DNA of 32,711 nucleotides, from positions 1 to 32,711 of the forward strand of contig JAMPXV010000010.1 in assembly GCA_023700985.1 (NCBI GenBank). The letters run 5' to 3'. A program made the translations under genes and the position numbers. Positions within the stretch are counted from its first letter, which is position 1; the number at the start of each line of letters is the position of its first letter. Below are positions 12,040 through 26,689 of this stretch, one piece after another. The notes under the pieces were generated by a model. That model was not told the DNA's origin. It saw nothing but the letters and a program-made list of their open reading frames with translations, and ran no database searches. This DNA is from Lysobacter sp. (GTDB lineage Bacteria > Pseudomonadota > Gammaproteobacteria > Burkholderiales > Usitatibacteraceae).

Positions 12040-14028
12040 CTACCAGTGGATGCCCTGGGTGATCTGGGCGAAGGCCACCTGCTCGGGCGTGAGTTCCACG
12101 TCCTTCGCGCCGTCCTTGCGGCCCTGGGCCGCCGTGGAATCGGGGAACATGCGGAACGCGGTGTTGAGGATGATCTGCGTGGCCTTCGGCGCGACCGCGT
12201 GCAGCAGCGCGCCGAAGATGCCCAGGCGCGTGGCGATGCGCACCGGCTTGTAGACGATCGCCTCGGCCACGAGGTCGGCCGCCTGCCCGGGCGTGAGGGT
12301 GGGCACGTGGTTGTAGAGCTTCGTCGGCGCGATCATCGGCGTCTTCACCAGCGGCATGTTGATGGTGGTGAAGGAGATGTTGCTGTCGGAGAACTCGCTC
12401 GCCGCGCAGCCGGTGAAGGAATCCAGCGCCGACTTGGAGGCCACGTAGGCGGAGAAGCGCGGCGCCTGCGTGAGCACGCCGATCGACGAGATGTTGATGA
12501 TGTGGCCGTGCCGGTGCTTCATCATCGACGGCAGGAACCCCATGATGAGGCGCAGGCTGCCGAAGTAATTGAGCTGCATCGTGCGCTCGAAGTCGTGGAA
12601 GCGGTCGAACGACGACGCGATCCCCCGGCGGATGGAGCGGCCCGCGTTGTTGACCAGGTAGTCGCAGCGCCCGAACTCCTTGAGCACGGCGGCGACCAGC
12701 CGGTCGCAGTCCGCGATGTCCGCGAGGTCGCAGGAGATGAACCTGCCCTTGCCGCCGAGGGCCTTGATCCTCGCCATCACGGGCGTGGCCTTCTGCGGGT
12801 CGCGCGCCACCACCACGACCTGCGCGCCGGCCTCCGCCATCTTGTAGGCGGTGGCTTCTCCGATGCCGGAAGTGCCGCCGGTGATCACGATCACCTTGTC
12901 CTTCACCTTGCCGGCCAGCGAGCGGTCGATGAAGAGGTCGGGGTCGAGGTTCCTCTCCCAGTAGTCCCACACGCGCCAGGCGTAGTCCTCGAGGCGGGGC
13001 ACCGCGATGCCCGAGCCCTTCAGGGCCCTGGCGCATTCGCGGTTGTCGAACCTCGTGGGGTAGTTCACGAACTTGAACATGTCCTTCGGGATGCCCAGGT
13101 CCGCGAGGAGCTGCTTCTGGATGCGGCGCACCGGCGCGAGCGACATGGCCGAGTCGACCACGAAGTCCGGGATGAAGCCGAACATCTTGGCGTTGAGCCG
13201 CATCGTCATCTGCGGCGCGTGCGCGGCCTTCGCGAAGAGGTTCAGGATCTCGCCGATGCGCCGCGGTTCCGGGTCCGTGAGGTGGAAGCAGCCGCCGTCG
13301 AGCCCCTTCCTGTGGGCGATGTGGTCGATGGCGTCGACCACGAAGTCCACCGGGACGATGTTGATGCGCCCGCCCTCGATGCCCACCGTGGGCATCCACT
13401 GCGGCAGGGCCTTGCGCATCTTCTGGATGAGCTTGAAGAAGTAGTAGGGGCCGTCGATCTTGTCGATCTCGCCCGTCCTCGAGTGGCCGACGACGATGGC
13501 CGGGCGGTAGATGCGCCAGGGCCGCCGGCACTCCTTGCGGACGACGCCCTCGGAGTCGTGCTTGGTGCGGAAGTAGGGGTGGTCGAGCTCCTCGGCCTCG
13601 TCGAACATGTCCTCGCGGAAGACGCCGTCGTAGAGCCCGGCGGCGGCGATGGAGCTCACGTGGTGGAAGCAGCCGGCCTGGATGGCCCCGGCGAGCTGCA
13701 CCGCGTGGCGCGTGCCGTCGATGTTGGCCTTCTCCTGGCTCGCGGCGTCGGCGGAGAGGTCGTAGATGGCGGCGAGGTGGAAGAGGTGCTCGACCTTGCC
13801 CTTCATCCGGGCGAGGTCGGCGGCGGACACGCCCAGCTTCGGCTTCGCGAGGTCGCCCACGATCGCCACGACGCGCTTCCCGTTGCTTCCCCAGCGCTCG
13901 CGCAGGGTGTCGAGCTTCTTCACCGAGCCCTTGCGCACGAGCACGTACACGGTGCCTTCGCGCTCGAGGAGGCGGTCGATGAGGAAGCGGCCGATGAAGC
14001 CGGTGCCGCCGGTCACGAAGTAGGACAT
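12040..14028 (-). CDS. Two-domain fatty acyl reductase (acyl-CoA/ACP to fatty alcohol)
   Basis: A 662-residue fusion of two short-chain-dehydrogenase domains. Domain 1 (about 1-360) has TGGTGFIG at 6-13, Tyr152-x3-Lys156 (YFRTK) and the extended-SDR acyl-reductase features. Domain 2 (about 375-640) has TGGTSGIG at 383-390, Ser515 and Tyr528-x3-Lys532 (YVASK). Length, both domains and segments such as GPYYFFKLIQKMRKALPQW, INISSIGVLTQAPRFSAYVA and the C-terminal IxW ending match, from memory, the Marinobacter fatty acyl reductase that makes fatty alcohols for wax ester, and more distantly mycobacterial acyl-CoA reductases. Both active sites look intact. It starts at ATG 14028 with GGAGAGAG upstream and is divergent from phasin 1 across a 212-bp regulatory gap. 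Wax ester use is supported by the WS/DGAT gene 3.3 kb away. Confidence 0.9.
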   Translation of the reverse strand: MSYFVTGGTGFIGRFLIDRLLEREGTVYVLVRKGSVKKLDTLRERWGSNGKRVVAIVGDLAKPKLGVSAADLARMKGKVEHLFHLAAIYDLSADAASQEKANIDGTRHAVQLAGAIQAGCFHHVSSIAAAGLYDGVFREDMFDEAEELDHPYFRTKHDSEGVVRKECRRPWRIYRPAIVVGHSRTGEIDKIDGPYYFFKLIQKMRKALPQWMPTVGIEGGRINIVPVDFVVDAIDHIAHRKGLDGGCFHLTDPEPRRIGEILNLFAKAAHAPQMTMRLNAKMFGFIPDFVVDSAMSLAPVRRIQKQLLADLGIPKDMFKFVNYPTRFDNRECARALKGSGIAVPRLEDYAWRVWDYWERNLDPDLFIDRSLAGKVKDKVIVITGGTSGIGEATAYKMAEAGAQVVVVARDPQKATPVMARIKALGGKGRFISCDLADIADCDRLVAAVLKEFGRCDYLVNNAGRSIRRGIASSFDRFHDFERTMQLNYFGSLRLIMGFLPSMMKHRHGHIINISSIGVLTQAPRFSAYVASKSALDSFTGCAASEFSDSNISFTTINMPLVKTPMIAPTKLYNHVPTLTPGQAADLVAEAIVYKPVRIATRLGIFGALLHAVAPKATQIILNTAFRMFPDSTAAQGRKDGAKDVELTPEQVAFAQITQGIHW

Positions 14029-14066
14029 GGTTCTCTCTCCCCGGTGTGCGCTAGGTTCGACCGCGA

Positions 14067-14072
14067 ATGATA
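14067..14072 (-). promoter_or_regulatory. -10-like box for the acyl reductase gene
   Basis: On the minus strand this reads TATCAT, 38 bases before the reductase ATG, leaving room for a leader with GGAGAGAG. The same spot on the plus strand contains TACACT (14071-14076), so it could serve either direction. Confidence 0.35.
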
Positions 14073-14117
14073 CACTCGCGCCCCGCGCCGCCGGACCGGC
14101 CCGGGGGAGCGCAAATT

Positions 14118-14147
14118 TAGTGTGCCCGCTCTAATCCTTTCGCCTAG
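14118..14147 (+). promoter_or_regulatory. Conserved three-block element, copy 1 (phasin 1 / acyl reductase)
   Basis: Three 7-bp blocks, TAGTGTG, CTCTAAT and CGCCTAG, separated by 4 and 5 bases. The same three blocks with the same spacing occur before the second phasin gene (19983-20012, minus strand). It ends 93 bp before the phasin ATG and lies about 90 bp upstream of the divergent reductase start. TAG-N10-CTA inside it is a partial dyad. Identity and spacing are read directly; a regulatory role is inferred. Confidence 0.7.
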
Positions 14148-14161
14148 CCTTGGTCGTGAAA

Positions 14162-14183: not shown

Positions 14184-14240
14184 GGCCGCCGAACCGCAAG
14201 GGGAGGCGGCGGTCGGCAACGATTGAGGAAAGGAAGAACG

Positions 14241-14690
14241 ATGGCCACCACCCGCACCTCCCGCACCCGCAAGACCCGCACCCCGGCGGTGACGCCCGCG
14301 AGGGCCGCCCGCACCATCCGCGCCTCCGCGCAGAAGGCGTTCGAGGCCGGCGTGCAGGCCGCCTCCGGCGTCCGCCAGTCCGCCGTCGGCGCGTTCGACG
14401 CCCTGGTGAAGCAGGGCGCCGCCCTCGAGTCGCGCAGCCGCCGCGCCGCCATGGCGAAGGCCGGCAAGGCCCGCGACGCCGCGTGCGCCCGCGCCGAGGA
14501 AGCCCGCGCCCGGACCGTCGAGGCGGTGTCCCACCTCGAGAAGGTCTTCGAGCAGCGCGTCTCCAAGGCGATCGCCAGCCTCGGCGTCCCGACGGTGCGC
14601 GACGTCCGCGCCTTGTCGCGCCAGGTCGCCGAGCTGCAGGCCAGCGTCGACCGGCTGCACCGCGCCCGCGCGCGCGCAGCAGCCCGATAG
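14241..14690 (+). CDS. Phasin family granule-associated protein (phasin 1)
   Basis: Likely surface protein of storage granules or lipid droplets. It has 149 residues. A basic N-terminus (about 1-25, rich in Thr, Arg, Lys, Ala) precedes an amphipathic Ala-rich helical region with the PhaI/PhaF-type landmarks LVKQGAALESRSR, LEKVFEQRVSKAIASLGVPT and a terminal heptad-like coiled coil (VRALSRQVAELQASVDRL). It is homologous to the second phasin at 19414-19917 over the core. The ATG at 14241 has a strong GGAAAGGAAG ribosome site; a TTG 18 bases upstream is rejected. The patatin gene starts three bases after its stop, so coat protein and lipase are co-transcribed. PHA granules are the usual target of this family, but no PHA synthesis gene is in the window. 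Confidence 0.85.
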   Translation: MATTRTSRTRKTRTPAVTPARAARTIRASAQKAFEAGVQAASGVRQSAVGAFDALVKQGAALESRSRRAAMAKAGKARDAACARAEEARARTVEAVSHLEKVFEQRVSKAIASLGVPTVRDVRALSRQVAELQASVDRLHRARARAAAR

Positions 14691-14693
14691 GGC

Positions 14694-15989
14694 ATGACGC
14701 GGCGCCCGGCACCCGCAAGGTCCGCCGCGAGGAAGGTTTCCGCCCCGCGGCGGAAGAGGGCCGGCAAGGCAGCGAGGCCCCGGATGGGGCTTGCCCTCGC
14801 CGGGGGCGGGCCCTTCGGGGCGATCTACGAGATCGGCGCGCTGCTGGCGCTCGAGGAGGCCCTGGACGGCGTGCGCTTCCATGACCTCGACGTCTACGTG
14901 GGCGTGAGCGCCGGGAGCTTCCTGGCCGCCGCGCTCGCCAACGGCATCCCGATCTCCGAGATCTACGGCATCTTCATCGAGGGCGACGAGGCGGAGGGCG
15001 CGCTCACCCCCGAGGTCTTCATGCGTCCGGCGCTGCGGGAATACCTGCAGCGGGCGCGGACCGTGCCGCCGCTGCTCGCCCGCTCGCTGTGGCAGTACGT
15101 CCGGCGGCCGCTGTCCCGCGGGGCGCTGGAGTCCTTCGCGGCGCTGGGCCGGGCGATCCCCACCGGCGTCTTCGACAACGACACCATCCGCCAGTATCTC
15201 GCGGCGGTGTTCACGCAGCCGGGACGCACGGACGATTTCCACCGCCTGAAGCACCGGCTCTACCTCGTCGCCACGGACCTCGACAGCGGCGAGAGCGTGA
15301 GCTTCGGCCGGCCGGGGCACGACCGCGTTCCCATCTCGCAGGCCGTCCAGGCGAGTGCCGCGCTCCCGGGGCTCTTCCCGCCCGTGGAGATCGACGGGCA
15401 CTGCTTCGTCGACGGGGCCCTGCGCAAGACCCTGCACGCCTCCGAGGCGCTGGACGACGGCGCGAAGCTCGTGATCTGCGTGAACCCGATCGTGCCCTAC
15501 GACGCGGGCCTCGCCGCGGAGAAGGGCAAGGGCCGCCACCGCCGCCTCGTCGAGGGCGGGCTCCCCGTGGTGCTGTCGCAGACCTTCCGCGCCATCATCC
15601 ATTCGCGCATGGCCGTCGGCATCTCCAAGTACCGCGGCCAGTACCGCGACGCCGACGTCGTCCTGTTCGAGCCCGACGCCGACGACAGCGAGATCTTCTT
15701 CACCAACATCTTCAGCTACTCGACCCGCAAGCGCCTCTGCGAGCACGCCTACCAGCGCACCCGGCGCGACCTCCTGCGCCGGCGCTACGAGCTCGAGCCG
15801 GCGCTCGCCCGCCACGGCGTAAGCCTGCGCCTGGACGTGCTGCGCGACGCCACGCGCGTGATCACGCTCGGCACCGGCAACGTGGCCCGGCCGGCCGCCG
15901 CCGGGCTGTCGGAGTCCGCCGACGACCTGCGCGAGACCCTCGTCGACCTGCGCCGCTGGCTCGCCCGCAAATACCCCGCCCCGGCGTGA
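14694..15989 (+). CDS. Patatin-like phospholipase/lipase
   Basis: Ser-Asp dyad acyl hydrolase, 431 residues. The oxyanion hole GGGPFG is at 37-42, the nucleophile Ser72 in GVSAG (70-74) and the catalytic Asp240 in VDGA. After the core comes a C-terminal extension of about 150 residues (FRAIIHSRMAVGISKYR, then a charged helical part), common in bacterial cytosolic patatins. The first 30 residues are Arg/Lys/Ala/Pro-rich, resembling the basic tails on neighbouring granule proteins; Met31 (14784) is an alternative start but the ATG at 14694, three bases after the phasin stop, fits coupling. Co-transcription with a phasin suggests it mobilises the stored lipid or polyester. The exact substrate (wax ester, triacylglycerol, phospholipid or PHA) is unknown. 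Confidence 0.87.
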   Translation: MTRRPAPARSAARKVSAPRRKRAGKAARPRMGLALAGGGPFGAIYEIGALLALEEALDGVRFHDLDVYVGVSAGSFLAAALANGIPISEIYGIFIEGDEAEGALTPEVFMRPALREYLQRARTVPPLLARSLWQYVRRPLSRGALESFAALGRAIPTGVFDNDTIRQYLAAVFTQPGRTDDFHRLKHRLYLVATDLDSGESVSFGRPGHDRVPISQAVQASAALPGLFPPVEIDGHCFVDGALRKTLHASEALDDGAKLVICVNPIVPYDAGLAAEKGKGRHRRLVEGGLPVVLSQTFRAIIHSRMAVGISKYRGQYRDADVVLFEPDADDSEIFFTNIFSYSTRKRLCEHAYQRTRRDLLRRRYELEPALARHGVSLRLDVLRDATRVITLGTGNVARPAAAGLSESADDLRETLVDLRRWLARKYPAPA

Positions 15990-15995: not shown

Positions 15996-16003
15996 CTCCG
16001 GCC

Positions 16004-16684
16004 ATGGCGAAAGCTCCCGCCGGCCGGCCCGCCCTCGACGGCAACGCGGTGCGCACCCAGCGCACGCGGGAGCGCATCCTCGCCGTGAGCCTCGGCCTCT
16101 TCAACGACCGCGGCGAGGCGCACGTCACGACCGGGATGATCGCCGACGAGCTCGACATCAGCCCCGGCAACCTGTACTACCACTTCCGCAACAAGGACCA
16201 GATCGTCGAGCGCCTGTTCGAGCGCTACGAGGAGCGGATCTCGATCGAGCCCCCGCAGCCTTCCGGCGGCGCCGGGGCGATCGAGGACCTCTGGCTCTAC
16301 CTGCACCTGATGTTCGAGGCGATCTGGGACTACCGGTTCCTGTACCGGAACCTCGAGGACATCGTCGGCCGCAACCGGCGGCTGCGCGAGCGCTTCCGGC
16401 GCATCGTCGATGCGAAGCTCGACGCGGTGGAAGGGCTCTGCCGGGGGCTGGCGCGCGGCGGCTTCATGAAGGCGACGCCGGGCGAGGTGCGAGCGCTGTC
16501 GGTGAACGTGCTGGTCGTGGCCACCTACTGGCTCAACTTCCAGTCGGTGCGGGGCGACCGGGACGCGGGCGACGCCCGCGACCCGGGAAACGGCGCCTAC
16601 CAGGTGATGTCCCTCGTGGCGCCTTTCCTGGCGGGCGAGGCGCGGGCGCACTTCGAGCGCCTCGGTCGCGAATACGTGCGGTGA
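16004..16684 (+). CDS. TetR/AcrR family transcriptional regulator
   Basis: Probable ligand-responsive repressor, 226 residues. The N-terminal helix-turn-helix covers about residues 18-65 (TRERILAVSLGLFNDRG through ISPGNLYYHFRNKDQIVERLFE), very typical of TetR. The C-terminal ligand-binding part is helical with an aromatic stretch (IWDYRFLYRNLEDIVGRNRRL) seen in a TetR subgroup found near lipid genes. It starts 14 bp after the patatin stop, so it may be part of the phasin-patatin operon and report on lipid state. Its operator is unknown; candidates in the window are the phasin element and the palindrome at 26671-26690. Acyl-CoA as ligand is only a guess. Confidence 0.9.
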   Translation: MAKAPAGRPALDGNAVRTQRTRERILAVSLGLFNDRGEAHVTTGMIADELDISPGNLYYHFRNKDQIVERLFERYEERISIEPPQPSGGAGAIEDLWLYLHLMFEAIWDYRFLYRNLEDIVGRNRRLRERFRRIVDAKLDAVEGLCRGLARGGFMKATPGEVRALSVNVLVVATYWLNFQSVRGDRDAGDARDPGNGAYQVMSLVAPFLAGEARAHFERLGREYVR

Positions 16685-16844: not shown

Positions 16845-16885
16845 TCCAGCTGAACCAACGTCACTATCTGATTGGAGGATCCTGA

Positions 16886-17278
16886 ATGGCAACTAAGAAA
16901 GCCAAGAAACCCGCCGCGAAGAAGCCCGCGGCCAAGAAGCCCGCCGCGAAGAAGCCGGTGGCCAAGAAGACCGCCGCCAAGAAACCCGCGGCCAAGAAGG
17001 CCGCTCCGAAGAAGCCGGCCGCCAAGCGCAAGCCCAACGCCGCCTTCATGAAGCCCCTCACGCCGAGCGCCGCGCTCGCCGCCGTGATCGGCTCCGCCGC
17101 ACAGCCGCGCACCGAGGTGACCAGCAAGCTGTGGGCCTACATCAAGAAGAACGGCCTGCAGGACAAGGTCAACCGCCGCAACATCAACGCGGACGACAAG
17201 CTCCGCGAAGTCTTCGGCGGCAAGAAGACCGTCTCGATGTTCGAGATGACCAAACTGGTTTCGAAGCACCTGAAGTAA
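16886..17278 (+). CDS. SWIB/MDM2-domain protein with histone H1-like Lys/Ala/Pro tail
   Basis: A 130-residue protein in two parts. Residues 1-50 are a low-complexity basic tail of eight KK(P/T/A)xx pentapeptides. Residues about 53-130 form a SWIB domain (NAAFMKPLTPSAALAAVIG, LWAYIKKNGLQDKVNRRNINADDKLREVFGGKKTVSMFEMTKLVSKHL). SWIB domains are eukaryote-type chromatin modules that also occur in Chlamydia and many betaproteobacteria; here a nucleoid-associated role is likely because of the tail, but it is unproven. The start has a strong ribosome site (GGAGG, 7 bases before ATG) and its own promoter, and a strong terminator follows, so it is probably a monocistronic, highly expressed gene. Confidence 0.92.
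   Translation: MATKKAKKPAAKKPAAKKPAAKKPVAKKTAAKKPAAKKAAPKKPAAKRKPNAAFMKPLTPSAALAAVIGSAAQPRTEVTSKLWAYIKKNGLQDKVNRRNINADDKLREVFGGKKTVSMFEMTKLVSKHLK
16904..17023 (+). repeat. Eight degenerate 15-bp tandem repeats encoding the basic tail
   Basis: Eight consecutive 15-bp units, each beginning AAGAA(G/A), encode the pentapeptides KKPAA, KKPAA, KKPAA, KKPVA, KKTAA, KKPAA, KKAAP, KKPAA. The codons vary between units, so slippage is likely old or constrained at the protein level. Copy number may vary between strains. Confidence 0.85.
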
Positions 17279-17360: not shown

Positions 17361-18917
17361 CTAGGGCCCGCGAGGGCGCTTGCGGACCTTGCCCGGCTCC
17401 GCAACCTTCTTCCGCCTGGCCCTGGCTGCCTTGCCCGGCCTGGCCGGCGCGGGTGCCGGGGGGGCGGGCGCCGGGACCGCAGCCTCCACGCCCTCGTCCC
17501 CCCAGGGCGACATCAGCGTGAGCCACATGAGCTTGTCGAGCTCGCCCTGGAAACGCTCGACGATGCGGTCCGGATCGGGAACGAGGCCCGCGTCCGCGAT
17601 GAGCCCGAACTGGATGCGCCCGTTGTAGGAGAGGATCGACACGCCCATGCCGATGCCACCCGACTGCGGCACCCAGAAATCGAGCTCCTCGATGCGGCGG
17701 CCGGCGAAATAGATCGGGTACTGGGGCCCGGGCACGTTCGTCATCACGGCCGAGGCGTTCTGCGAGAGGAGGGCCGTGACCTGCTCCTGCAGGATCCTGG
17801 GCCCGTAGCCCACGGTGTGCAGCAGCCCGAGGACGATGAGGGGCTGGTAGGAGCCCTTGAGGGACTGCATCAGGCGCCGCACCTCGTAGAGCCGCTCGAG
17901 CGGATGGTCGATCCCGATGGGCAGGTCGAGGAACACCAGCCCGAAGCGGTTGCCGAGTTCCCGGCCGCCGCCGTTGCCGCGCAGGTTCACCGGCACGATG
18001 GCGCGGATGCCCAGGCCGTCGACCGCGTCGCCCTTGGAGGCGAGGTAGTCGCGAAGGGCACCGGTGGCCATCGCGAGGAGGACGTCGTTGATGGAGCAGC
18101 CCAGCGCCTTGCCCATCACCTTCACTTCCTCGAGCGGCACCGGCGTGGCCCACGCCACGCGCTTGCGGGCACCCAGGCGCCCCTTGAAGCGCGTGGGCGA
18201 GTCGCTGCCCATGAGGGCGAGGCGGGCCAACTCGCCCGCGAAATCCATCCCCTTGCGCGTGGCACCCTCGAGCGCCTCCTGCGCGGCTGCGGGGTTGGCC
18301 GCGATCTCGCGGCCCTGGTCGAGGAGGTTGCGGCCGACGCGCGAGGCGCTCTCGAGGGCTCCGGTCACCGGCCGAAGGATCTGCTCCCAGAGGTCCGCCT
18401 CGCCGCCGCGGTCCGCGTCGAATCGCTCGGCCCGAAGCGCGAGGCTGGCCCGCGCCGTCTTCTCGGTCATCGAGAGCATGACCTGCACCAGCGCGATGCC
18501 GTCGGCGTAGCAGTGGTGGATGCGCATCACCAGCGCGCTGCCGCCCGCGTAGTTGTCGACGAGGTGAAACTGCCAGAGGGGCTTGGAGAAGTCGAGCGGC
18601 GTGGAGGCGAGGTCGCTCACGAAGGCCTGCAGTTCCGCCTTGCCGGCCCCGCCCGGCAGCGCCACCTGGTGGACGTGCGAGTCCATGTCGAAGTCGGGAT
18701 CGTCCTCCCACCAGGCGCCGGTGGGGTCCTGGACGGCCCGTTGCCGGAAGCGCGGGAAGGCGAGGAAGCGCCGGTCGAGCGTGCGCCTGACCTGCTTCAC
18801 GTCGAGCCGCCCCTCGAACATGAGCACGCCGACGATCACCATGAGGTTGGTCGGCAGGTCCATCCTCAGCCAGGCCGTGTCCACGCCGGAAATGCGCTCT
18901 CTGCGGACTTCGGGCAT
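17361..18917 (-). CDS. Wax ester synthase / diacylglycerol acyltransferase (WS/DGAT)
   Basis: Joins fatty acyl-CoA to a fatty alcohol (wax ester) or diacylglycerol (triacylglycerol) at the membrane. It has 518 residues. The catalytic HHxxxDG motif is intact as HHCYADG at 134-140; PLW at 113-115 and the ND motif in SINDVLLAMATGALRDYL are also present, together with NRFGLVFLDLPIG, NVPGPQYPIYFAG and GIGMGVSILSYNG in the C-terminal domain. Typical family length is 450-480; the excess is a C-terminal tail of about 45 residues rich in Ala, Pro, Lys and Arg. The ATG at 18917 has GAGGAG upstream. It is divergent from the ACBP gene across 112 bp and convergent with the SWIB gene. The acyl reductase nearby supports wax ester as product. 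Confidence 0.93.
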   Translation of the reverse strand: MPEVRRERISGVDTAWLRMDLPTNLMVIVGVLMFEGRLDVKQVRRTLDRRFLAFPRFRQRAVQDPTGAWWEDDPDFDMDSHVHQVALPGGAGKAELQAFVSDLASTPLDFSKPLWQFHLVDNYAGGSALVMRIHHCYADGIALVQVMLSMTEKTARASLALRAERFDADRGGEADLWEQILRPVTGALESASRVGRNLLDQGREIAANPAAAQEALEGATRKGMDFAGELARLALMGSDSPTRFKGRLGARKRVAWATPVPLEEVKVMGKALGCSINDVLLAMATGALRDYLASKGDAVDGLGIRAIVPVNLRGNGGGRELGNRFGLVFLDLPIGIDHPLERLYEVRRLMQSLKGSYQPLIVLGLLHTVGYGPRILQEQVTALLSQNASAVMTNVPGPQYPIYFAGRRIEELDFWVPQSGGIGMGVSILSYNGRIQFGLIADAGLVPDPDRIVERFQGELDKLMWLTLMSPWGDEGVEAAVPAPAPPAPAPARPGKAARARRKKVAEPGKVRKRPRGP

Positions 18918-18979
18918 CGGGGGAATCTCCTCGTCGCGTGGCCGGATGCCCGTGCCGTTGCGGCCGGCGGGCGCTTTCG

Positions 18980-18991
18980 GCTAACTTTAGC
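18980..18991. promoter_or_regulatory. Short palindrome between WS/DGAT and ACBP genes
   Basis: GCTAA-CT-TTAGC is a perfect 5-bp dyad in the divergent gap, 39 bp before the ACBP start and 63 bp before the WS/DGAT start. It is short enough to be chance, but it is the only A/T-rich spot in the gap and so probably overlaps a promoter or operator. Confidence 0.35.
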
Positions 18992-19029
18992 ACCATCCCC
19001 CTGGGGGCAATGAGGCAAGGAGCAGCGCG

Positions 19030-19290
19030 ATGGCGGACGTGAAGAAGCAGTTCGAGGCGGCGGCAGCGGCGGTCCTGAAGGCGAAGAAGGATCCCGGCAG
19101 CGACCTCAAGCTGAAGCTCTACGCGCACTACAAGCAGGCCACCGAGGGCGACGTGGCGGGCGAGAAGCCCGGGTTCACCGACTTCGTGAACCGGGCCAAG
19201 TACGAGGCCTGGGCCAAGCTCAAGGGGATGGGGGCGGAGGACGCGATGAAGGCCTACGTGAAGCTCGTCGACCGGGTGACGCGGGAGTAA
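19030..19290 (+). CDS. Acyl-CoA-binding protein (ACBP)
   Basis: Small four-helix protein that binds medium- and long-chain acyl-CoA with high affinity and buffers or delivers it. It has 86 residues, the standard length. The classical signature LKLKLYAHYKQATEGD (Tyr and Lys ligand residues) and NRAKYEAWAKLKGMGAEDAMKAYV are unmistakable. AAGGAG lies 8 bases before the ATG. ACBP is common in eukaryotes and patchy in bacteria. Here it is divergent from the WS/DGAT gene and upstream of phasin 2 and fadD, which suggests delivery of acyl-CoA to wax ester synthase or reductase. A hairpin terminator shared with phasin 2 follows. Confidence 0.95.
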   Translation: MADVKKQFEAAAAAVLKAKKDPGSDLKLKLYAHYKQATEGDVAGEKPGFTDFVNRAKYEAWAKLKGMGAEDAMKAYVKLVDRVTRE

Positions 19291-19413: not shown

Positions 19414-19917
19414 TCATTTCGCCTTGCGACGCGCCGCCTTCTTCGCGGGGGCCTTCTTCGCGGGGGCCTTCTTCGCGGGGGCCTTGCGGGCACGCCTGGG
19501 CGCCGCGCCGCCCATCAGGGCGCGCACGCTCTCGTTCAGGTCGGAGACCTGGCGGGCCAGCACGTCGACGTCCTTGCTGGTGAGCACGCCCAGGCGGTTG
19601 AGCGAGCGCGAGACGCGATCCTCGAACACCTGCTCGAGCTTGTCCCACTTGCCCTGCGCCGAGGAGAGGGTGACGTCGGCCTGCGTGCGTACGGACTTCA
19701 TCGCCTGGTCGGCGGCCTTGCCGCTCTTCGTGCGGATCGTCTTGCCCTGCTCGACGAGCAGGTCGAACAGCTTGTCGCCCTCGGTGCGGGCGCGGGCGAA
19801 CGCGCCGAGCCCGGCGAGCCAGATCTTCTGCGCAGACTGGGTGACCGCCTGCGCGAGCTGGTTGTCGGCGGCGGACTTGCGCACCTTGGCGCGGGTTTTC
19901 GTCTTCCGGGTTGCCAT
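19414..19917 (-). CDS. PhaF-like phasin with Lys/Ala/Pro C-terminal tail (phasin 2)
   Basis: A 167-residue granule-associated protein. Core landmarks match phasin 1: KIWLAGLGAFARARTEGDKLFDLLVEQGK (PHA-granule family N-terminus), KLEQVFEDRVSRSLNRLGVLTSKDV and the coiled-coil ending VLARQVSDLNESVRAL. Residues about 140-167 form a histone-like tail with three KKAPA-type repeats. This core-plus-tail plan is that of Pseudomonas PhaF, where the tail binds DNA and helps distribute granules to daughter cells. The ATG at 19917 has a GGAGGAAG ribosome site. It is divergent from fadD and carries the second copy of the three-block element upstream. PHA or lipid droplet target is undecided from sequence. 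Confidence 0.9.
   Translation of the reverse strand: MATRKTKTRAKVRKSAADNQLAQAVTQSAQKIWLAGLGAFARARTEGDKLFDLLVEQGKTIRTKSGKAADQAMKSVRTQADVTLSSAQGKWDKLEQVFEDRVSRSLNRLGVLTSKDVDVLARQVSDLNESVRALMGGAAPRRARKAPAKKAPAKKAPAKKAARRKAK
19441..19485 (-). repeat. Three perfect 15-bp tandem repeats in the phasin 2 tail
   Basis: Three identical 15-bp units (19441-19455, 19456-19470, 19471-19485) encode the repeated AKKAP pentapeptide. Unlike the SWIB repeats they are identical at nucleotide level, which points to recent duplication and possible length variation. Confidence 0.9.
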
Positions 19918-19982: not shown

Positions 19983-20012
19983 CTAGGCGCGAGAATTAGA
20001 GGAATCACACTA
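19983..20012 (-). promoter_or_regulatory. Conserved three-block element, copy 2 (phasin 2 / fadD)
   Basis: Read on the minus strand: TAGTGTG (20012-20006), 4 bases, CTCTAAT (20001-19995), 5 bases, CGCCTAG (19989-19983). All 21 block bases and both spacings equal copy 1 at 14118-14147, while the spacer bases differ. It ends 65 bp before the phasin 2 start and sits 122 bp upstream of the divergent fadD start. Confidence 0.7.
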
Positions 20013-20134: not shown

Positions 20135-21814
20135 ATGGAAAGACCCTGGATCAAGTCCTACCCGCCCGGCGTGGGCGCCGACATCGACATGGGGGCCTAT
20201 TCGAGCCTTCGCGACATCCTCGAGTCGAGCTGCGGCCGCTACGCCGACCTTCCGGCGTTCACCTGCATGGGCGCCACCATCACCTACCGGGAGCTCGACC
20301 GGCTCTCCACGGACTTCGGAAGCTGGCTGCAGAACTCGGCCGGCCTCGGCAAGGGGGCGCGCGTCGCCCTGATGATGCCCAACCTGCTGCAGTACCCGGT
20401 GGCCATCTTCGGCCTGCTCCGGGCGGGGCTCGTGGGCGTGAACTGCAACCCCCTGTACACGCCGCGCGAGCTCGAGCACCAGCTGGTCGACTCCGGCGCC
20501 GAGGCCATCGTCATTCTCGAGAACTTCGCGAAGACGCTGGAGGAGGTGCTGCCGCGGACGAAGGTGAAGACGGTCGTCACCACCCAGATCGGCGACATGC
20601 TGGGCTTCCCCAAGTCGCTCATCGCCAACTTCGTCGTGAAGCGCGTGAAGAAGATGGTGCCGCCGTTCAGCCTGCCGGGCCGGGTGAGCTTCCCCGACGC
20701 GCTCGCGGCCGGCAGGTCGCACCGCCTGGCGCCCCCCCCGATCGGACTGGAGGACATCGCCTTCCTGCAGTACACCGGCGGCACGACCGGCGTCTCGAAG
20801 GGTGCGATGCTCACCCACGGCAACCTCGTGGCGAACCTGATGCAGGTCTCGAACTGGGTCGGGACGGGCCTGGAGGAGGGCCGCGAGACGGTCATCACCG
20901 CGCTGCCGCTTTACCACATCTTCGCGCTCACCGGGAACTGCCTCACCTTCATGAAGATCGGCGCGAAGAACGTGCTGATCCCCAACCCCCGGGACCTGCC
21001 GGGCTTCGTGGCCGAGCTGGGCAGGCACCGCTTCACGGCCATCACGGGCGTGAACACGCTCTTCAACGCGCTCATGAACACGCCGGGGTTCGCCAACCTG
21101 GACTTCTCGGGGCTGAAGATGACGCTGGGCGGCGGGATGGCCGTGCAGCGCGCGGTGGCGGAGCGCTGGATGGAGGTCACCCGGACGCCCCTCGTCGAGG
21201 CCTACGGGCTCACCGAGACTTCCCCCGGGGCGTGCATCAACCCGCTGGTGAAGGACGCGCGCTACAACGGCTTCGCGGGCCTGCCGCTGCCCTCCACCGT
21301 CGTCACCATCCGCGACGAGGCCGGCACGATTCTTCCGGCCGGGGAGTCGGGGGAGATCTGCATCGCCGGCCCGCAGGTGATGAAGGGCTACTGGAACCGC
21401 CCCGACGAGACGGCCAAGGTGATGTTCCCCGACGGGGCGTTCCGCACCGGCGACATCGGCCTCATGGACGAGCGCGGCTACGTGAAGATCGTGGACCGCA
21501 AGAAGGACATGATCCTGGTCTCCGGCTTCAACGTGTACCCCAACGAGGTGGAGGACGTCGTGGCGATGATGCCGGGCGTCCTCGAGGTGTGCGCCGTGGC
21601 CTCGCCCGATGAAAAGTCCGGCGAGGTGGTGCGGCTCGTCGTGGTGAGGAAGGACCCGGAGCTCACCAAGGAGGCGGTGCTCGAGCACTGCAGGAAGCAC
21701 CTGACGGGCTACAAGCTCCCGAAGATCGTGGAGTTCTGGAAGGAGCTGCCGAAGACGAACGTCGGCAAGGTGCTGCGGCGCGAGGTCAAGAACGCGCCCC
21801 TTCACACGGACTGA
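20135..21814 (+). CDS. fadD: Long-chain fatty acid-CoA ligase (FadD type)
   Basis: Activates free fatty acids to acyl-CoA with ATP through an acyl-adenylate. It has 559 residues, matching E. coli FadD (561). The N-terminus (ERPWIKSYPPGV) is FadD-like. The ATP-binding P-loop motif YTGGTTGVSKGAMLTHGN is at 213-230, followed by YGLTETSPG, FRTGDIG, and the FACS signature region IVDRKKDMILVSGFNVYPNEVED, with the C-terminal catalytic lysine in TNVGKVLRRE. The frame is open further upstream, but ATG 20135 has a GAGAGGAG site and the right N-terminus. It is divergent from phasin 2. Its last 29 bases overlap the end of the convergent aminotransferase gene. It could feed beta-oxidation, wax ester synthesis or both. 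Confidence 0.94.
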   Translation: MERPWIKSYPPGVGADIDMGAYSSLRDILESSCGRYADLPAFTCMGATITYRELDRLSTDFGSWLQNSAGLGKGARVALMMPNLLQYPVAIFGLLRAGLVGVNCNPLYTPRELEHQLVDSGAEAIVILENFAKTLEEVLPRTKVKTVVTTQIGDMLGFPKSLIANFVVKRVKKMVPPFSLPGRVSFPDALAAGRSHRLAPPPIGLEDIAFLQYTGGTTGVSKGAMLTHGNLVANLMQVSNWVGTGLEEGRETVITALPLYHIFALTGNCLTFMKIGAKNVLIPNPRDLPGFVAELGRHRFTAITGVNTLFNALMNTPGFANLDFSGLKMTLGGGMAVQRAVAERWMEVTRTPLVEAYGLTETSPGACINPLVKDARYNGFAGLPLPSTVVTIRDEAGTILPAGESGEICIAGPQVMKGYWNRPDETAKVMFPDGAFRTGDIGLMDERGYVKIVDRKKDMILVSGFNVYPNEVEDVVAMMPGVLEVCAVASPDEKSGEVVRLVVVRKDPELTKEAVLEHCRKHLTGYKLPKIVEFWKELPKTNVGKVLRREVKNAPLHTD

Positions 21815-23006
21815 TCGCGGCCAGGGCCTGCTCGATGCGGGGAAGGGCCCAGTCGAGTTCTTCGCGGCCGATGACCAGCGCCGGCGCCAGGCGAACGACC
21901 TGGCCTTGCGTCTCCCGGGTGAGGATGCCGCGCTCGCGCAGGGCCGCCGCGAACTGCGCCCCGGTTGCCACGGACGCCTCGATCTCCAGGCCCACGAGCA
22001 GGCCGAGCCCGCGCACCTCGCGCAGTGCGGGCGAATCGATCGCGCGCAGCCGGCCGGCCAGGTAGTCGCCCAGTTCGGCCGCGCGCCGGGGGAGCCCTTC
22101 CTCGACGAGGAGCTCGAGGGCTTCGAGCCCGACGGCCGCCCCCAGCGGGTTGCCCCCGAAGGTGCTGCCGTGGTCGCCCGGCTGCAGCACGCCCAGGACA
22201 TCCTCGCGGGCGAGGAAGGCGGAGACGGGAACGAGCCCGCCACCCAGCGCCTTGCCGAGCACCAGGGCGTCGGGCCGGACGCCCTCGTGATCGCATGCGA
22301 GGAGCCGGCCGGTCCGGCCCAACCCCGTCTGGACCTCGTCGGCGATGAGGAGCACGCCGCGGCGGCGGCAGATCGCCGCGCACTCGGCGAGGTAGCCGGG
22401 TGGCGGCACCCGCACGCCGGCCTCGCCCTGCACCGGCTCGACGAGAAAGGCCGCGGTGTCCGGGCCGATCGCGGCCTCCAGCGCCCGAGGGTCCCCGAAC
22501 GGCACGACCCGGAATCCGCCACCGAAGGGGCCGAACCCCGTGCGGTACTGGGGGACCGTCGAGAAGCCGACGATGGTGGAGGTCCTGCCGTGGAAGTTGC
22601 CTTCGCACACGATGATCTGTGCGCGGCCGTCGGGCACCCGGCCGGTGACGTGCGCCCACTTGCGCGCGACCTTGATCGCCGTCTCGACGGCCTCCGCGCC
22701 GGTGTTCATGGGAAGGGCGCGGTCCATTCCCGTCAACTCGCACAGGCGCGCGAGGAACACGGGCAGGCGATCGTTGTGGAAGACGCGCGAGGTCACCGCG
22801 AGCCGCTGCGCCTGCCGGCACAGCGCCTCCACGAGGCGGGGATGGGAGTGCCCGAAGCTCACTGCCGAGTAGGCCGAGAGCATGTCGAGGTAGCGGTTCC
22901 CGGCGGTGTCCGTGAGCCATGCACCGCGGCCCTGTGCCAGGACGATCGGCACCGGGTCGTAATTGCGCGCCGCATAGCGGCGCTCGAGGGCGATCATGTC
23001 GCTCAT
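21786..23006 (-). CDS. rocD: Ornithine--oxo-acid aminotransferase-like class III aminotransferase
   Basis: PLP enzyme that likely moves the delta-amino group of ornithine to 2-oxoglutarate, giving glutamate semialdehyde. It has 406 residues. Typical RocD segments are ERRYAARNYDPVPIVLAQG, LPMNTGAEAVETAIKVARKW, GNFHGRTSTIVGFS, the cofactor aspartate in LLIADEVQTGLGRTG and the PLP lysine in LVLGKALGGG. The start at 23006 has GGGAAGGGA upstream; the frame continues 16 codons further but without family similarity. It is convergent with fadD and overlaps its 3' end by 29 bp. No other arginine or ornithine genes are near, so its link with the lipid genes is unclear; acetylornithine or another omega-aminotransferase is a lesser alternative. 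Confidence 0.88.
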   Translation of the reverse strand: MSDMIALERRYAARNYDPVPIVLAQGRGAWLTDTAGNRYLDMLSAYSAVSFGHSHPRLVEALCRQAQRLAVTSRVFHNDRLPVFLARLCELTGMDRALPMNTGAEAVETAIKVARKWAHVTGRVPDGRAQIIVCEGNFHGRTSTIVGFSTVPQYRTGFGPFGGGFRVVPFGDPRALEAAIGPDTAAFLVEPVQGEAGVRVPPPGYLAECAAICRRRGVLLIADEVQTGLGRTGRLLACDHEGVRPDALVLGKALGGGLVPVSAFLAREDVLGVLQPGDHGSTFGGNPLGAAVGLEALELLVEEGLPRRAAELGDYLAGRLRAIDSPALREVRGLGLLVGLEIEASVATGAQFAAALRERGILTRETQGQVVRLAPALVIGREELDWALPRIEQALAAISPCEGARS

Positions 23007-23102: not shown

Positions 23103-24704
23103 CTAGGCCCGGGAGCGGGGCGAGAGCCCGGCCGCCAGCTCGCTCGCCATGCGCGCGGCCTGCGCGTAGATCGAGAGCTGCGGATTGGCGCCGATGCTGG
23201 TCGGGAACACGGACCCGTCGTGCACCGATAGGTTCGCGATGTGGTGGTGGCGTCCGCGCTCGTCGACCAGCGCATGCCGGGGATCGGGGCCCATCGGGCA
23301 GCCGCCCATCACGTGCGCGCTCACGACCCGGGGGTGCAGCGGGACCATGGAAAGGCCCGCGATCGCGGCCTTCGCCGCCGGCCAGCCGGCGACCGGCGCG
23401 GCGTCCTCGTGCAGCGGCATCACGGTCGATGCGCCCGCCGCGAACTGGATCTCGGCCATCGCGAGGTACGCGCGGCGGATGCCGTCCTGCAGGAATGCGC
23501 CGATCGGGTAGTCGAGCTCCGGCGAGCCGTCGTCCCGCAGCCGCACGCGGCCGCCGGGCGAATCCGGGTGGAAGCCGTCGCGCAGGAGCGCGATCACGAC
23601 CTGCAGGTTCGCGAACTCCTTCATCCATTTCGCGTGCCCCGCGCCGTGGCCCGGGAGCGTGATGCCCGCGAGGATCGGGTGCAGCGGGGGCGCCTCGAGC
23701 TTGAAGCCGACCGGCCCGTCCACGGGCACCGCATCGAGGAAGTGGTCCGAGTAGATCGTCTGCGGCGCGCCCTCGTAGCCCTTCACCGGCGCCGGCATGA
23801 GGGCGGCCGACACGACCGTCGGGTGCAGGAAGGTGCGCCGCCCGACGAGCTCGCCGGGATCGGGCAGGGCGCTGCGCATCAGCACCGCGGGGCTGCCGAT
23901 GGCGCCGGCGGCGAGGACGAAGTGGCGTGCCACGAGGCGGACGCGGTGCACGCCCGGCGGGGAGCCGGACCCCGCCACGCCTCGCGCCTGCGCCTCGACG
24001 ATGCGGTCGCCGGAGGCGACCAGCCGTTCCAGGCGCGCGCGATGCACGAGGACCGCGCCTTTCGCGAGCGCGGCCGGGATGGTGGTCACCAGCATCGACT
24101 GCTTCGCGTTGGTGGGGCATCCCATGCCGCAGTAGCCCAGGTTCCAGCAGCCCTTCACGTTGCGCCGGATGGCGGCGGCGGCGATGCCCAGCTTCTCGCA
24201 GCCGCGGCGAAGGATGTCGTTGTTCTCGTTCGGCGGGACGGGCCACGGCGCGATCGACAGCCGTTCCTCCATGCGCGCGAACCACGGGGCGAGGTCGGCC
24301 TCGCCCATGCCCTGGATGCCGTGCACGGCGCGCCAGTGCGCGAGCGTGGTGGGCGGGGTGCGGAAGCTCGAGGTCCAGTTCACGGTCGTCGACCCGCCCA
24401 CGCAACGGCCCTGCAGGATCGTGACCGCCTTGTCGCGCGTCTGGCGGCCGGCCGACTCCTGGTAAAGCTGCGGATAGGCCTCGCGCTCGCGCATGCGGAA
24501 GTCCGCGGACGACTTGAGCGGGCCTTCCTCCACGATCACGACGGCGAGCCCCGCGTGCGCGAGGATCTCGGCCGTCACGCCGCCCCCGGCGCCGCTGCCG
24601 ACCACGACCACGTCCGCCTCAAGGCGCAGGTCCGAATCGAGCGTCGCCGCGTCGATCGTCTTCCAGCCGGCCGCGATGCCTTCGCGGAACGGGTCGGCGA
24701 TCAT
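23103..24704 (-). CDS. GMC-family FAD oxidoreductase, probable long-chain alcohol oxidase
   Basis: Flavoenzyme that likely oxidises a primary alcohol to the aldehyde. It has 533 residues. The FAD-binding GSGAGG is at 36-41 (VVVVGSGAGGGVTAEILAHAG), followed by the GMC patch GRCVGGSTTVNW. A cysteine cluster Cys186-Cys192-Cys196 (GCWNLGYCGMGCPTNAKQ) resembles the pattern of long-chain fatty alcohol oxidases. The C-terminal active site includes SAHVMGGCPMG and GANPQLSIYAQA. It has no signal peptide of its own. Its ATG overlaps the stop of the Tat-signal gene (ATGA), and an aldehyde dehydrogenase gene lies upstream in the same operon, together making alcohol to acid. Choline- or other alcohol-dehydrogenase activity cannot be excluded; fatty alcohol is favoured by the neighbouring wax ester genes. 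Confidence 0.87.
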   Translation of the reverse strand: MIADPFREGIAAGWKTIDAATLDSDLRLEADVVVVGSGAGGGVTAEILAHAGLAVVIVEEGPLKSSADFRMREREAYPQLYQESAGRQTRDKAVTILQGRCVGGSTTVNWTSSFRTPPTTLAHWRAVHGIQGMGEADLAPWFARMEERLSIAPWPVPPNENNDILRRGCEKLGIAAAAIRRNVKGCWNLGYCGMGCPTNAKQSMLVTTIPAALAKGAVLVHRARLERLVASGDRIVEAQARGVAGSGSPPGVHRVRLVARHFVLAAGAIGSPAVLMRSALPDPGELVGRRTFLHPTVVSAALMPAPVKGYEGAPQTIYSDHFLDAVPVDGPVGFKLEAPPLHPILAGITLPGHGAGHAKWMKEFANLQVVIALLRDGFHPDSPGGRVRLRDDGSPELDYPIGAFLQDGIRRAYLAMAEIQFAAGASTVMPLHEDAAPVAGWPAAKAAIAGLSMVPLHPRVVSAHVMGGCPMGPDPRHALVDERGRHHHIANLSVHDGSVFPTSIGANPQLSIYAQAARMASELAAGLSPRSRA

Positions 24705-25231
24705 CCGCGCCTCCCGTCGAGCGCCGGCGGGCCGGGATAGCCGATGCGCTCCCAGGACGCCGGGTTGCCGTACCACGCGGCGAGGAGGAGCTGCGTGAGC
24801 GCCTGGCAGCCGGCGCGCAGCAGCCCGAAGCGGCTGGTGCGCCAGCGGCGCAGGAAGGCGTGCACTTCGTCCGGCGTGGCCTCGTGCCAGGCCGAGCGCA
24901 CGCCCGCGACGATGAAGCGCCCCGCGGCCAGGCCGAGAAGCGCGAAGAGCTGGGCGATTTCCTCCTGTACCGCCGGGGAGAGCCCCGAGACGGCACGGTC
25001 GAAGGCCTGGACCACTTCCTTCACGGCCTCCTTTCGCGCCGGGCCGTCCGCGGGCAGCGCATCCTCGAGGACCACGGGGACGAGGGCCGCGACGATGGCG
25101 GCCGCGCGCTTGTCCAGCCACTGGAAGCCGGGCGCAGGCGCCCGGCCCTGCCGGAGCGCGAGCCACCCGGCGCCGGCGAGGACGGCGCCGGAGGCGAGGC
25201 CGACCTTGAGGAACTGGCGCCGGGTGAGCAT
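24701..25231 (-). CDS. Tat-signal small subunit-like protein (gluconate-dehydrogenase subunit 3-like)
   Basis: A 176-residue protein starting with a twin-arginine signal, TRRQFLK at 3-9, then a hydrophobic segment (VGLASGAVLAGAGWLAL). The mature part is helical, with an acidic region around VPVVLEDALPADGP, in the style of small Tat-exported partners of GMC dehydrogenases. No metal or cofactor motif is visible. Its stop overlaps the start of the GMC gene, so the two are made together, and it may carry the signal-less flavoprotein across the inner membrane. It starts 6 bp after the aldehyde dehydrogenase stop. Subunit 3 identity is tentative; partnership with the GMC enzyme is well supported by context. 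Confidence 0.75.
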   Translation of the reverse strand: MLTRRQFLKVGLASGAVLAGAGWLALRQGRAPAPGFQWLDKRAAAIVAALVPVVLEDALPADGPARKEAVKEVVQAFDRAVSGLSPAVQEEIAQLFALLGLAAGRFIVAGVRSAWHEATPDEVHAFLRRWRTSRFGLLRAGCQALTQLLLAAWYGNPASWERIGYPGPPALDGRRG

Positions 25232-25237
25232 GGCGCG

Positions 25238-26689
25238 CTAGCGCAGGAGCAGGCGCACGAGGCTTTCGAAGCGCTTGCCGTAAGGCGCGCGGAAGAGCTT
25301 CAGGCCGTTGATCCGCGACTGCCGGAAGACGGCCTTGCGCTTCGAGAACGTGTCGAACCCTTCGCGGCCGTGGTACTGGCCCATCCCCGAGGCGCCCACG
25401 CCGCCGAAGGGCAGGTCGTCCTGCGCGATGTGCAGGATCGTCTCGTTCACCGTGACCCCGCCCGAGACGGTGCCGGTGATCACGCGCTCCACCGCCTCGC
25501 CGTCGTGCTCGAACACGTACAGCGCGAGCGGACGGGGCCGCGCGTTCACGAAGGCGATGGCGTCCTCGAGGCGGCGGTAGGGGATGACGGGCAGCAGGGG
25601 GCCGAAGATCTCCTCGCGCATCACCGCCATCGCCTCGTCGACGCCCACGAGGAGGGTGGGGGCGCGCTTGCCCGCCGCGGCGACGTCCTCGCCGGCCGGG
25701 TTGATCTCGATGGCCTTCGCACCCTTCGCCACCGCGTCGGCCAGGAGGCCCGCCAGGCGCTCGCGATGGCGGGCGTCGACGATGGCCGTGAAGTCGGGGT
25801 TGGCCGCGAGCGTCGGATAGAGCGAGGCGACGGCGGCGCGCGCGCCTTCCACGAAGGCGTCGACCGACTCCTCGGGGACCAGCACGTAATCCGGCGCCAC
25901 GCAGGTCTGCCCGGCATTGAGGCACTTGCCGAAGAGGATCCGGCTCGCCGCCTCGTCGACCGAAAAGCCGCGCCCGACGATCGCCGGCGACTTGCCGCCC
26001 AGCTCCAGGGTGACGGGGGTGAGGTTGTCGGCGGCGGCGCGCATCACGTGCCGCCCGACGCCGGAGGACCCGGTGAAGAGCAGGTGGTCGAAGGGGAGCC
26101 GGCAGAAGGCCTGCGCGACCCCCGCGTCGCCGTTCACCACGTCGACCTCGCCGCCGGGGAAATGCCGTTCGACGAGGCGGGCCAGCAGCCCGCCCGTCGC
26201 CGGCGTGGTCTCCGACATCTTCACCATCGCGCGGTTTCCCGCCGCCAGCGCCGGCACCAGCGGCCCGATGGCAAGGTACAGGGGGTAGTTCCAGGGCACC
26301 ACGATGCCGACCACGCCCAGGGGCTGCGGCACCACGGACGAGCGCCCGGGCAGGAACCACAGGCTCGTGGGGCGGCGTTGCGGCTTCATCCATCGCCGGA
26401 GGTGGCGCCGGGCGTGGCGGATTCCCTCGAGCGACGGGAAGATCTCGAGGAGCTGCGTCTCGTGCGGCGAGCGGCCGCCGAAGTCGCGGGAAATCGCCTC
26501 CGACCACTCGCCGGCGTGTTCCTTGACGAGGGCCTCGAGCCGGTCGAGCAGGTCCATGCGCTCGGCAGCCGGAGGAAAGGGCTGCCGGGCGAAGGCATCG
26601 CGGTGGCGGGCGAACCGGGCGTCGAGGTCGGGGAGCAAGGGGAGGAAGCCGGGGCGGGGCGTTGACGAAGATTCAAACGCTCGTTTCAA
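25238..26689 (-). CDS. Aldehyde dehydrogenase, coniferyl-aldehyde-dehydrogenase type
   Basis: NAD(P)-dependent oxidation of an aldehyde to the acid. It has 483 residues as called. The catalytic residues are Asn133 (VPWN), Glu229 (LELGGK) and Cys263 (NAGQTC). The FFGPLLPV-like EEIFGPLLPVIPY and DLPFGGVGASGMGQYHG are family-typical. It resembles Pseudomonas coniferyl aldehyde dehydrogenases, but this subfamily also acts on long aliphatic aldehydes, which would fit the operon partner. The start is uncertain: no ATG is near; TTG at 26689 gives the usual family length but lies inside a palindromic operator, and the first 10 codons look unlike this genome's usage. TTG 26638 is an alternative. It leads an operon with the Tat protein and GMC oxidase. 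Confidence 0.88.
   Translation of the reverse strand: MKRAFESSSTPRPGFLPLLPDLDARFARHRDAFARQPFPPAAERMDLLDRLEALVKEHAGEWSEAISRDFGGRSPHETQLLEIFPSLEGIRHARRHLRRWMKPQRRPTSLWFLPGRSSVVPQPLGVVGIVVPWNYPLYLAIGPLVPALAAGNRAMVKMSETTPATGGLLARLVERHFPGGEVDVVNGDAGVAQAFCRLPFDHLLFTGSSGVGRHVMRAAADNLTPVTLELGGKSPAIVGRGFSVDEAASRILFGKCLNAGQTCVAPDYVLVPEESVDAFVEGARAAVASLYPTLAANPDFTAIVDARHRERLAGLLADAVAKGAKAIEINPAGEDVAAAGKRAPTLLVGVDEAMAVMREEIFGPLLPVIPYRRLEDAIAFVNARPRPLALYVFEHDGEAVERVITGTVSGGVTVNETILHIAQDDLPFGGVGASGMGQYHGREGFDTFSKRKAVFRQSRINGLKLFRAPYGKRFESLVRLLLR

Follow-up and report, generated by a model that had tools for sequence, protein, structure and literature searches.

A probable wax ester storage locus with linked phasins and a candidate TetR operator in a member of the Usitatibacteraceae

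Most of what is known about bacterial wax ester synthesis comes from Acinetobacter and Marinobacter, and to our knowledge little has been reported on its coat proteins or its transcriptional control in either. Both subjects are raised by a 32,711-nucleotide contig (JAMPXV010000010.1 of assembly GCA_023700985.1, filed as Lysobacter sp. and placed by GTDB in the Usitatibacteraceae, Burkholderiales), referred to here at its full length as the window. It encodes a two-domain fatty acyl reductase (FAR) and a wax ester synthase/diacylglycerol acyltransferase (WS/DGAT) among genes for an acyl-CoA-binding protein (ACBP), two phasins, a TetR regulator and candidate lipases. Do these genes make, coat and control a store of wax ester, or do the phasins and their regulator belong to polyhydroxyalkanoate (PHA)? 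Judged by sequence comparison, the window probably holds a locus for storing wax ester, with phasins as the coat and a candidate operator for TetR. The genes and sites on which the argument turns are as follows.

12040..14028, minus strand: FAR, two-domain alcohol-forming fatty acyl-CoA/acyl carrier protein reductase of MA-ACR type (NAD_binding_4 plus adh_short, PRK07201)
14118..14133: candidate operator 1, TAGAG-N6-CACTA, between FAR and phasin 1
14223..14690, plus strand: phasin 1 (PF05597), heading a phasin-patatin-TetR run
14694..15989, plus strand: patatin-like hydrolase, candidate neutral-lipid lipase (GVSAG and DGA read from the sequence)
16004..16684, plus strand: TetR regulator, candidate binder of both operators (PF00440 plus PF13972)
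17361..18917, minus strand: WS/DGAT acyltransferase of the HHCYADG clade (TIGR02946, 403 bits)
19030..19290, plus strand: ACBP (PF00887)
19414..19917, minus strand: phasin 2 (PF05597)
19997..20012: candidate operator 2, TAGAG-N6-CACTA, between phasin 2 and FadD
20135..21814, plus strand: FadD long-chain acyl-CoA synthetase (domain/family match)

A reductase of the alcohol-forming type

FAR matches NCBIfam PRK07201 over its full length (1–657 of 657) with 993 bits, and Pfam assigns NAD_binding_4 to residues 5–234, followed by a short-chain dehydrogenase/reductase (SDR) domain at residues 378–568. The YxxxK motifs of both domains (Y152/K156 and Y528/K532) and the dinucleotide motifs G7-G10-G13 and G384-G388-G390 are invariant in all 11 aligned sequences; orthologues are 61–99% identical to the window protein. 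Reductases of the same two-domain, alcohol-forming design come from Marinobacter (MA-ACR, which we take to be MAQU_2507) and from Methylibium, a betaproteobacterium (MT-ACR). FAR belongs to this proven type, and its own four-electron reduction is predicted from these relatives. As set out in the text of the source, the C-terminal domain of MA-ACR converts the thioester to aldehyde and the N-terminal domain converts aldehyde to alcohol, and MT-ACR likewise makes alcohols (PMC8492656). The first-pass annotation had proposed a route from acyl-CoA through alcohol to ester, and this route is supported by the type of the reductase together with the presence of a WS/DGAT.

A shared palindromic site as candidate operator

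The divergent promoters between FAR and phasin 1 and between phasin 2 and fadD share an imperfect inverted repeat, TTAGAG-N4-CACACTA, which at up to two mismatches occurs exactly twice in the window (0.05 expected). At up to one mismatch, the whole 3.45 Mb source assembly (319 contigs, 86% complete; the window is its contig C260) yields only these two sites. Across eight genomes of the genus, the strict pattern gives 12 sites in seven, six at each of the two promoters, and the reversed control pattern gives one.

Wider comparisons were made with 20 loci fetched around FAR (the fetched loci) and with the best 80 of at least 586 confirmed FAR relatives from a scan of named genomes (the named loci), of which seven are from the window's family and many are cut by contig ends; kinship among genomes and loci is ignored in all counts. 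The general form TAGAG-N6-CWCTA occurs 23 times in the fetched loci, 22 times no more than 450 bp upstream of a gene for a phasin, FAR or FadD; no such site was found in L040 (a family locus), L052 or L054. The named loci contain 38 sites in 1.44 Mb, 20 of which lie within 400 bp upstream of FAR, where 0.84 would be predicted from their density. Twelve of these 20 are from Marinobacter, in which all but one of 13 loci (L080, L094, L097, L099, L102, L105, L109, L116, L118, L121, L132 and L133) carry the full palindrome TAGAG-N6-CTCTA at 171–276 bp upstream of a lone FAR.

A matrix trained on the family was applied to 73 of the named loci, L055–L060 and L067 being omitted as family loci whose relatives had trained it. 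In 42 of the 73, the best site fell in the 300 bp upstream of a phasin or FAR, stretches that make up 2.8% of the sequence; 40 column-permuted matrices gave between 0 and 18 loci. Some good sites (for example in L072, L081, L101 and L103) precede genes that the phasin model left unplaced; the neighbour of the L072 site did match a phasin, and the open reading frames beside the L101 and L103 sites are phasin-like by eye. Scores were higher in the 45 loci that bear a TetR gene than in the 28 that do not (median 16.6 versus 11.2; p 8e-5, kinship-uncorrected).

The linked TetR is the likeliest binder of the candidate operator by analogy with PhaD, a TetR protein of Pseudomonas putida that acts on and binds the phaI phasin promoter, as described in the portions of the literature consulted (PMC9049629, PMC7204398). 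In both cases a TetR-family regulator is encoded with a phasin; PhaD is described there as activating PHA synthase and phasin genes, whereas the present site also lies before the genes for a fatty acyl reductase and FadD. A literature search brought up no evident report of a TetR operator for reductases of this kind. The shared site suggests that coat-protein and alcohol-making genes may be switched on together.

The general palindrome, searched in fetched stretches only, was not found in those taken from the PhaC contigs of the source genome (L159, L160). The divergent WS/DGAT–ACBP promoter (18918–19029) contains a conserved near-palindrome of its own, GCTAAAGTTAGC followed by CGAAA, of which some sister genomes have close versions.

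Phasins linked to the reductase

Both window phasins pass the PF05597 cut-off of 28.8 bits (87.9 and 123.2 bits). Fourteen genomes of the family were examined, and PF05597 phasins occur in the 13 that have FAR, where they map to its locus; two genomes, G002 and G006, each have one of their two copies on another contig, beside fadD and a palindromic site. Phasins of the PF09361 family are found away from the FAR locus and, by their listed coordinates, within 10 kb of phaC in at least nine of the 14.

A second family, that of Silanimonas lenta, was sampled with 80 genomes drawn from a larger group (95% completeness was specified, with no values displayed). PHA synthase was scored there with TIGR01836 at E 1e-3, a model that also matched class I enzymes. 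FAR is present in 49 genomes, every one of which has a strong PF05597 phasin, within 6 kb in 46. Ten of the 80 genomes give no PHA synthase match, and among these the linked PF05597 phasin is present in all six with FAR and in none of the four without it (Fisher p 0.0048, kinship-uncorrected). Silanimonas lenta DSM 16282 itself has FAR and a linked phasin, with no PHA synthase found. Retention of the phasin alongside FAR in genomes without PHA synthase supports a role as droplet coat. An earlier count, in which 11 of 18 FAR-bearing genomes from the named loci appeared to lack PHA synthase (by PF07167 over its cut-off), proved wrong for most, class III synthases being found with TIGR01836; only G063, G064 and G078 are without a match to either model.

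Gene content and conservation of the neighbourhood

Further features lie among and around those given above.

11034..11966, plus strand: alpha/beta hydrolase, lipase/esterase-like, candidate ester hydrolase (Pfam Abhydrolase_1; CHSMG at the nucleophile)
16886..17278, plus strand: SWIB-domain protein with Lys/Ala-rich tail, probably a passenger (domain match)
21786..23006, minus strand: ornithine aminotransferase, probably a passenger (TIGR01885)
23103..24704, minus strand: GMC oxidoreductase, LaoA-like long-chain alcohol dehydrogenase (family match, operon order as lao)
24701..25231, minus strand: small protein with twin-arginine translocation (Tat) signal, LaoB-like partner (weak TAT signal)
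25238..26689, minus strand: aldehyde dehydrogenase, LaoC-like (family match)
26738..27439, plus strand: FFLEELY-motif protein (NF047641, 236 bits; all-helical model)
27396..27752, minus strand: PHA_gran_rgn protein (PF09650)

Domain and family searches found every gene named in the first-pass annotation intact and at or very near its proposed position. They also recovered two genes missed within its span, for the SWIB-domain protein and the ornithine aminotransferase, which are likely passengers, and three overlooked just outside it, for the alpha/beta hydrolase, the FFLEELY protein and the PHA_gran_rgn protein, which are counted as members of the cluster.

Across the order, 61 genomes were surveyed. 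Of the 28 from the window's family, 25 have FAR, intact or interrupted at a contig end (the exceptions being G005, G016 and G020), as do five of the 33 from other families. Named relatives are FeB_7 and ACE_PRO65 in the same genus and GR16-43 (CP019169.1) and UKL13-2 (CP012157.1) in the same family. Those family loci among the fetched loci with enough sequence mostly keep the order FAR, phasin, patatin, TetR, WS/DGAT, ACBP, phasin, FadD, with patatin not seen near FAR in three g4 loci; the order continues through the GMC, Tat, aldehyde dehydrogenase, FFLEELY and PHA_gran_rgn genes in G001 and G009, and GMC stands at the edge in G010. Outside the family, the alpha/beta hydrolase is again found near FAR, and one locus (L054) has FAR with almost no other window gene.

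Near FAR in the 80 named loci are ACBP (51), TetR (50), phasin 2 (43), patatin (35), FFLEELY (28), PHA_gran_rgn (24), the alpha/beta hydrolase (13), phasin 1 and FadD (7 each), GMC and Tat (5 each), SWIB (4), aldehyde dehydrogenase (3) and ornithine aminotransferase (1). All four loci with SWIB belong to the window's family, where the gene is seen in g1 and g4 loci, and all five with GMC come from outside it. On these counts, FAR, ACBP, TetR, phasin, patatin, FFLEELY and PHA_gran_rgn form a widespread core, and SWIB and the aminotransferase are local. The 13 Marinobacter loci, with reductases 64–65% identical, have FAR alone, no other window gene being detected in the flanks covered. The cluster is kept in the family and rearranged across beta- and gammaproteobacteria. 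Sister genomes largely preserve the order, and portions of it reappear in other families and orders, so the clustering is not due to chance; much of the neighbourhood that the first-pass annotation had submitted to comparison across related genomes is conserved.

One member of the genus, G005 (98% complete), has no full-length FAR, PhaC or PF05597 phasin and no strict-pattern operator site anywhere in its genome, and keeps one PF09361 phasin; both storage systems have apparently been lost together.

The FFLEELY protein gives a confident all-helical model (pLDDT 90.6), for which Foldseek returned no match at E 0.001 and a second comparison no clear one (best Z 5.1), so that these searches of a predicted structure indicate neither a new nor a known fold. 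A literature search found no paper on FFLEELY or the FFLEE motif. A further copy of the gene lies near a WS/DGAT-like gene in Marinobacter (L145:6103-6852).

The SWIB/MDM2-domain protein sits between TetR and WS/DGAT, and its Lys/Ala-rich tail is histone-like. The convergent fadD and ornithine aminotransferase genes overlap by 29 bp at their ends (21786–21814), and the convergent FFLEELY and PHA_gran_rgn genes by 44 bp (27396–27439). Further along (27775–30698 and 30772–32710), TRAP transporter genes (DctM by Pfam, DctQ- and DctP-like by eye) adjoin genes for a class-V aminotransferase and an FAD-binding protein, and this region is probably a separate organic acid unit.

Alternative explanations

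Several observations weigh against a wax ester locus under one operator. Shared regulation, which the first-pass annotation put forward for testing, is supported for the FAR, phasin-patatin-TetR, phasin 2 and FadD promoters, which share the site, and not for the WS/DGAT–ACBP promoter, which is without it, as is the lao-like unit in this window. In 31 of 73 loci the best matrix match lies somewhere other than before a phasin or FAR, related loci are counted repeatedly, and Marinobacter carries the palindrome yet has no TetR near FAR. WS/DGAT is near FAR in just 23 of the 80 named loci and was not found in four family loci with 11–18 kb in view (L041, L043, L045, L048). Its clade is well separated from those Marinobacter copies that resemble the solved structures 6CHJ and 7NXG, so the type of ester is not fixed. 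Finally, PHA synthase is present in 25 of the 28 family genomes, the source genome included, so that the phasins could serve PHA, which is for this reason a real rival; and 19 of the 27 genomes of the Silanimonas lenta family with PHA synthase and without FAR have a PF05597 phasin, which can therefore serve PHA too.

The alternative that survives best concerns one arm only and is compatible with a wax ester locus. The aldehyde dehydrogenase, small Tat-type and GMC genes are tightly packed in that order, with a gap of 6 bp and an overlap of 4 bp. The Tat signal of the small protein is borderline (PF10518, 21.2 bits against a cut-off of 22.7, E 2.6e-4; TIGR01409, 14.6 against 16.7). A search for LaoA in plasmid sequences gave 211 records, all below 60% identity and distant GMC proteins only. 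LaoAB is said, going by the title of Panasia 2021, to be a Tat-dependent dehydrogenase. In the text of the papers on the LaoABCR system of Pseudomonas aeruginosa, LaoA is the alcohol dehydrogenase, LaoB its membrane partner and LaoC the aldehyde dehydrogenase (PMC7318663, PMC10045523). The window unit has the same three kinds of gene in the same order, on which the likeness is drawn, and differs in having no TetR gene directly beside it. This likeness and the Tat dependence attributed to LaoAB would place the arm at the envelope, where it more likely takes long-chain alcohol than re-oxidises a cytoplasmic pool, and the closed cytoplasmic cycle of the first-pass annotation is accordingly doubtful.

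Whether the unit would bring outside alcohols (from alkanes, detergents or plant waxes) into storage, and not recycle stored ones, is evenly balanced. Import fits the growth on long-chain alcohols that LaoAB is described as serving, and the order aldehyde dehydrogenase-Tat-GMC is that of PP_5120–5122 of P. putida, the last two of which are given as sharing 55% identity with LaoB and 70% with LaoA (PMC13291428). Against it, deletion of these two homologues is reported in the same text to leave growth on C16 and C20 alcohol unimpaired (PMC13291428), and the one fetched-locus site of the 23 placed elsewhere than before a phasin, FAR or FadD gene (L042:4265) lies in the lao-like promoter of the sister genus G009, between the gene for aldehyde dehydrogenase and that for FFLEELY, which ties the unit to the storage genes.

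A second alternative is that the ester is not a wax ester, the WS/DGAT clade making triacylglycerol or another ester and FAR supplying free alcohol or precursors of ether lipids. The window enzyme passes the curated cut-offs of both the catalytic and the C-terminal WS_DGAT Pfam domains and has the HHxxxDG motif (HHCYADG), in agreement with its initial assignment. In a tree of 47 rows including the window (five duplicates and one locus-end row, L069, omitted; Marinobacter copies close to 6CHJ and 7NXG standing in for the characterised enzymes, which are outside it), it falls in a clade of 39 rows with support 100/100. Marinobacter xestospongiae has five copies, three of which are among the other eight rows. 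Two of these three were compared with the solved structures: L141 scores 751 bits to 6CHJ and 461 to 7NXG, and L142 scores 340 and 356, versus only 102 and 125 bits for the window enzyme. The remaining two copies, L144 and L145, group with the window side on long branches of uncertain placement. A non-exhaustive search found no characterised enzyme in the window clade.

This distance favours another product, which is nevertheless unlikely, since linkage to an alcohol-forming reductase argues for an alcohol as acceptor. Moreover, among the 18 FAR-bearing named genomes in which WS/DGAT was sought anywhere in the genome, 11 have exactly one, and the seven of these in the tree all fall in the window clade. 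The separate idea that Lysobacter-group cassettes with no nearby WS/DGAT make another product is weakened, because the enzyme is present somewhere in 17 of the 18 (the sole miss being a Competibacter metagenome-assembled genome). The source genome has a second WS/DGAT (L158, G000:C248:1-7123) of the other clade, with HHAALDG, and no other window gene was detected on its contig, C248.

The last alternative, modelled on PhaD and PhaI/PhaF of Pseudomonas, is a PHA accessory locus in which the phasins, PHA_gran_rgn and TetR serve PHA granules and FAR and WS/DGAT are merely placed among them. It draws on the prevalence of PhaC in the family, on the binding of the phaI promoter by PhaD described in the text of the two papers cited above, on the naming of PF09650 as a PHA-system protein and on the PF05597 phasins of PHA synthase genomes without FAR; it is improbable, given that PF05597 phasins sit at the FAR locus in 13 genomes with PF09361 phasins elsewhere and commonly near phaC, that the linked phasin is kept in all six FAR genomes without PhaC, and that FAR itself carries the palindromic site.

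Relation to described loci and proposed model

The first-pass annotation knew of no described single locus that held these steps together with ACBP and phasins. The core gene set is already partly in print for betaproteobacteria: the text of Galvan 2023 describes Burkholderiales-like scaffolds with WS/DGAT and adjacent ACBP, two scaffolds that carry a PHA-system protein and an SDR reductase sharing about 59% identity with MAQU_2507, and a phasin elsewhere in the same cluster, on a separate scaffold (PMC10351704). That text, figures and supplements aside, describes no patatin, TetR, FFLEELY or LaoABC-like genes and no operator. The present analysis adds a larger cassette and its distribution, a candidate operator shared within it, and the retention of phasin with FAR in the absence of PHA synthase.

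In the wax ester locus proposed here, FadD would make acyl-CoA and ACBP carry it. FAR would reduce it, by its C-terminal domain to aldehyde and by its N-terminal domain to alcohol, activities shown for its relatives, and WS/DGAT would join fatty alcohol and acyl-CoA into wax ester. The two PF05597 phasins, perhaps with PHA_gran_rgn and FFLEELY, may coat the droplets, from which patatin and the alpha/beta hydrolase would mobilise stored ester. The LaoABC-like unit would oxidise long-chain alcohols, probably at the envelope. The FAR, phasin-patatin-TetR, phasin 2 and FadD promoters carry the one palindrome, most likely bound by the linked TetR; since the phasin-patatin-TetR promoter is among them, the regulator, if it binds there, would control its own gene, and it may respond to acyl-CoA or another fatty intermediate.

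More broadly, and tentatively, a wax ester granule regulon may be common to beta- and gammaproteobacteria, one with a TetR-family sensor acting at TAGAG-N6-CWCTA, in which PF05597 phasins, PHA_gran_rgn and FFLEELY are droplet proteins and not, or not only, PHA proteins, and of which Marinobacter keeps the operator at a lone reductase. If true, this would provide a coat-protein candidate and a testable operator for wax ester, and would explain the occurrence of PHA-type phasins in bacteria without PHA synthase; a phasin or PHA_gran_rgn match alone need not then mean PHA.

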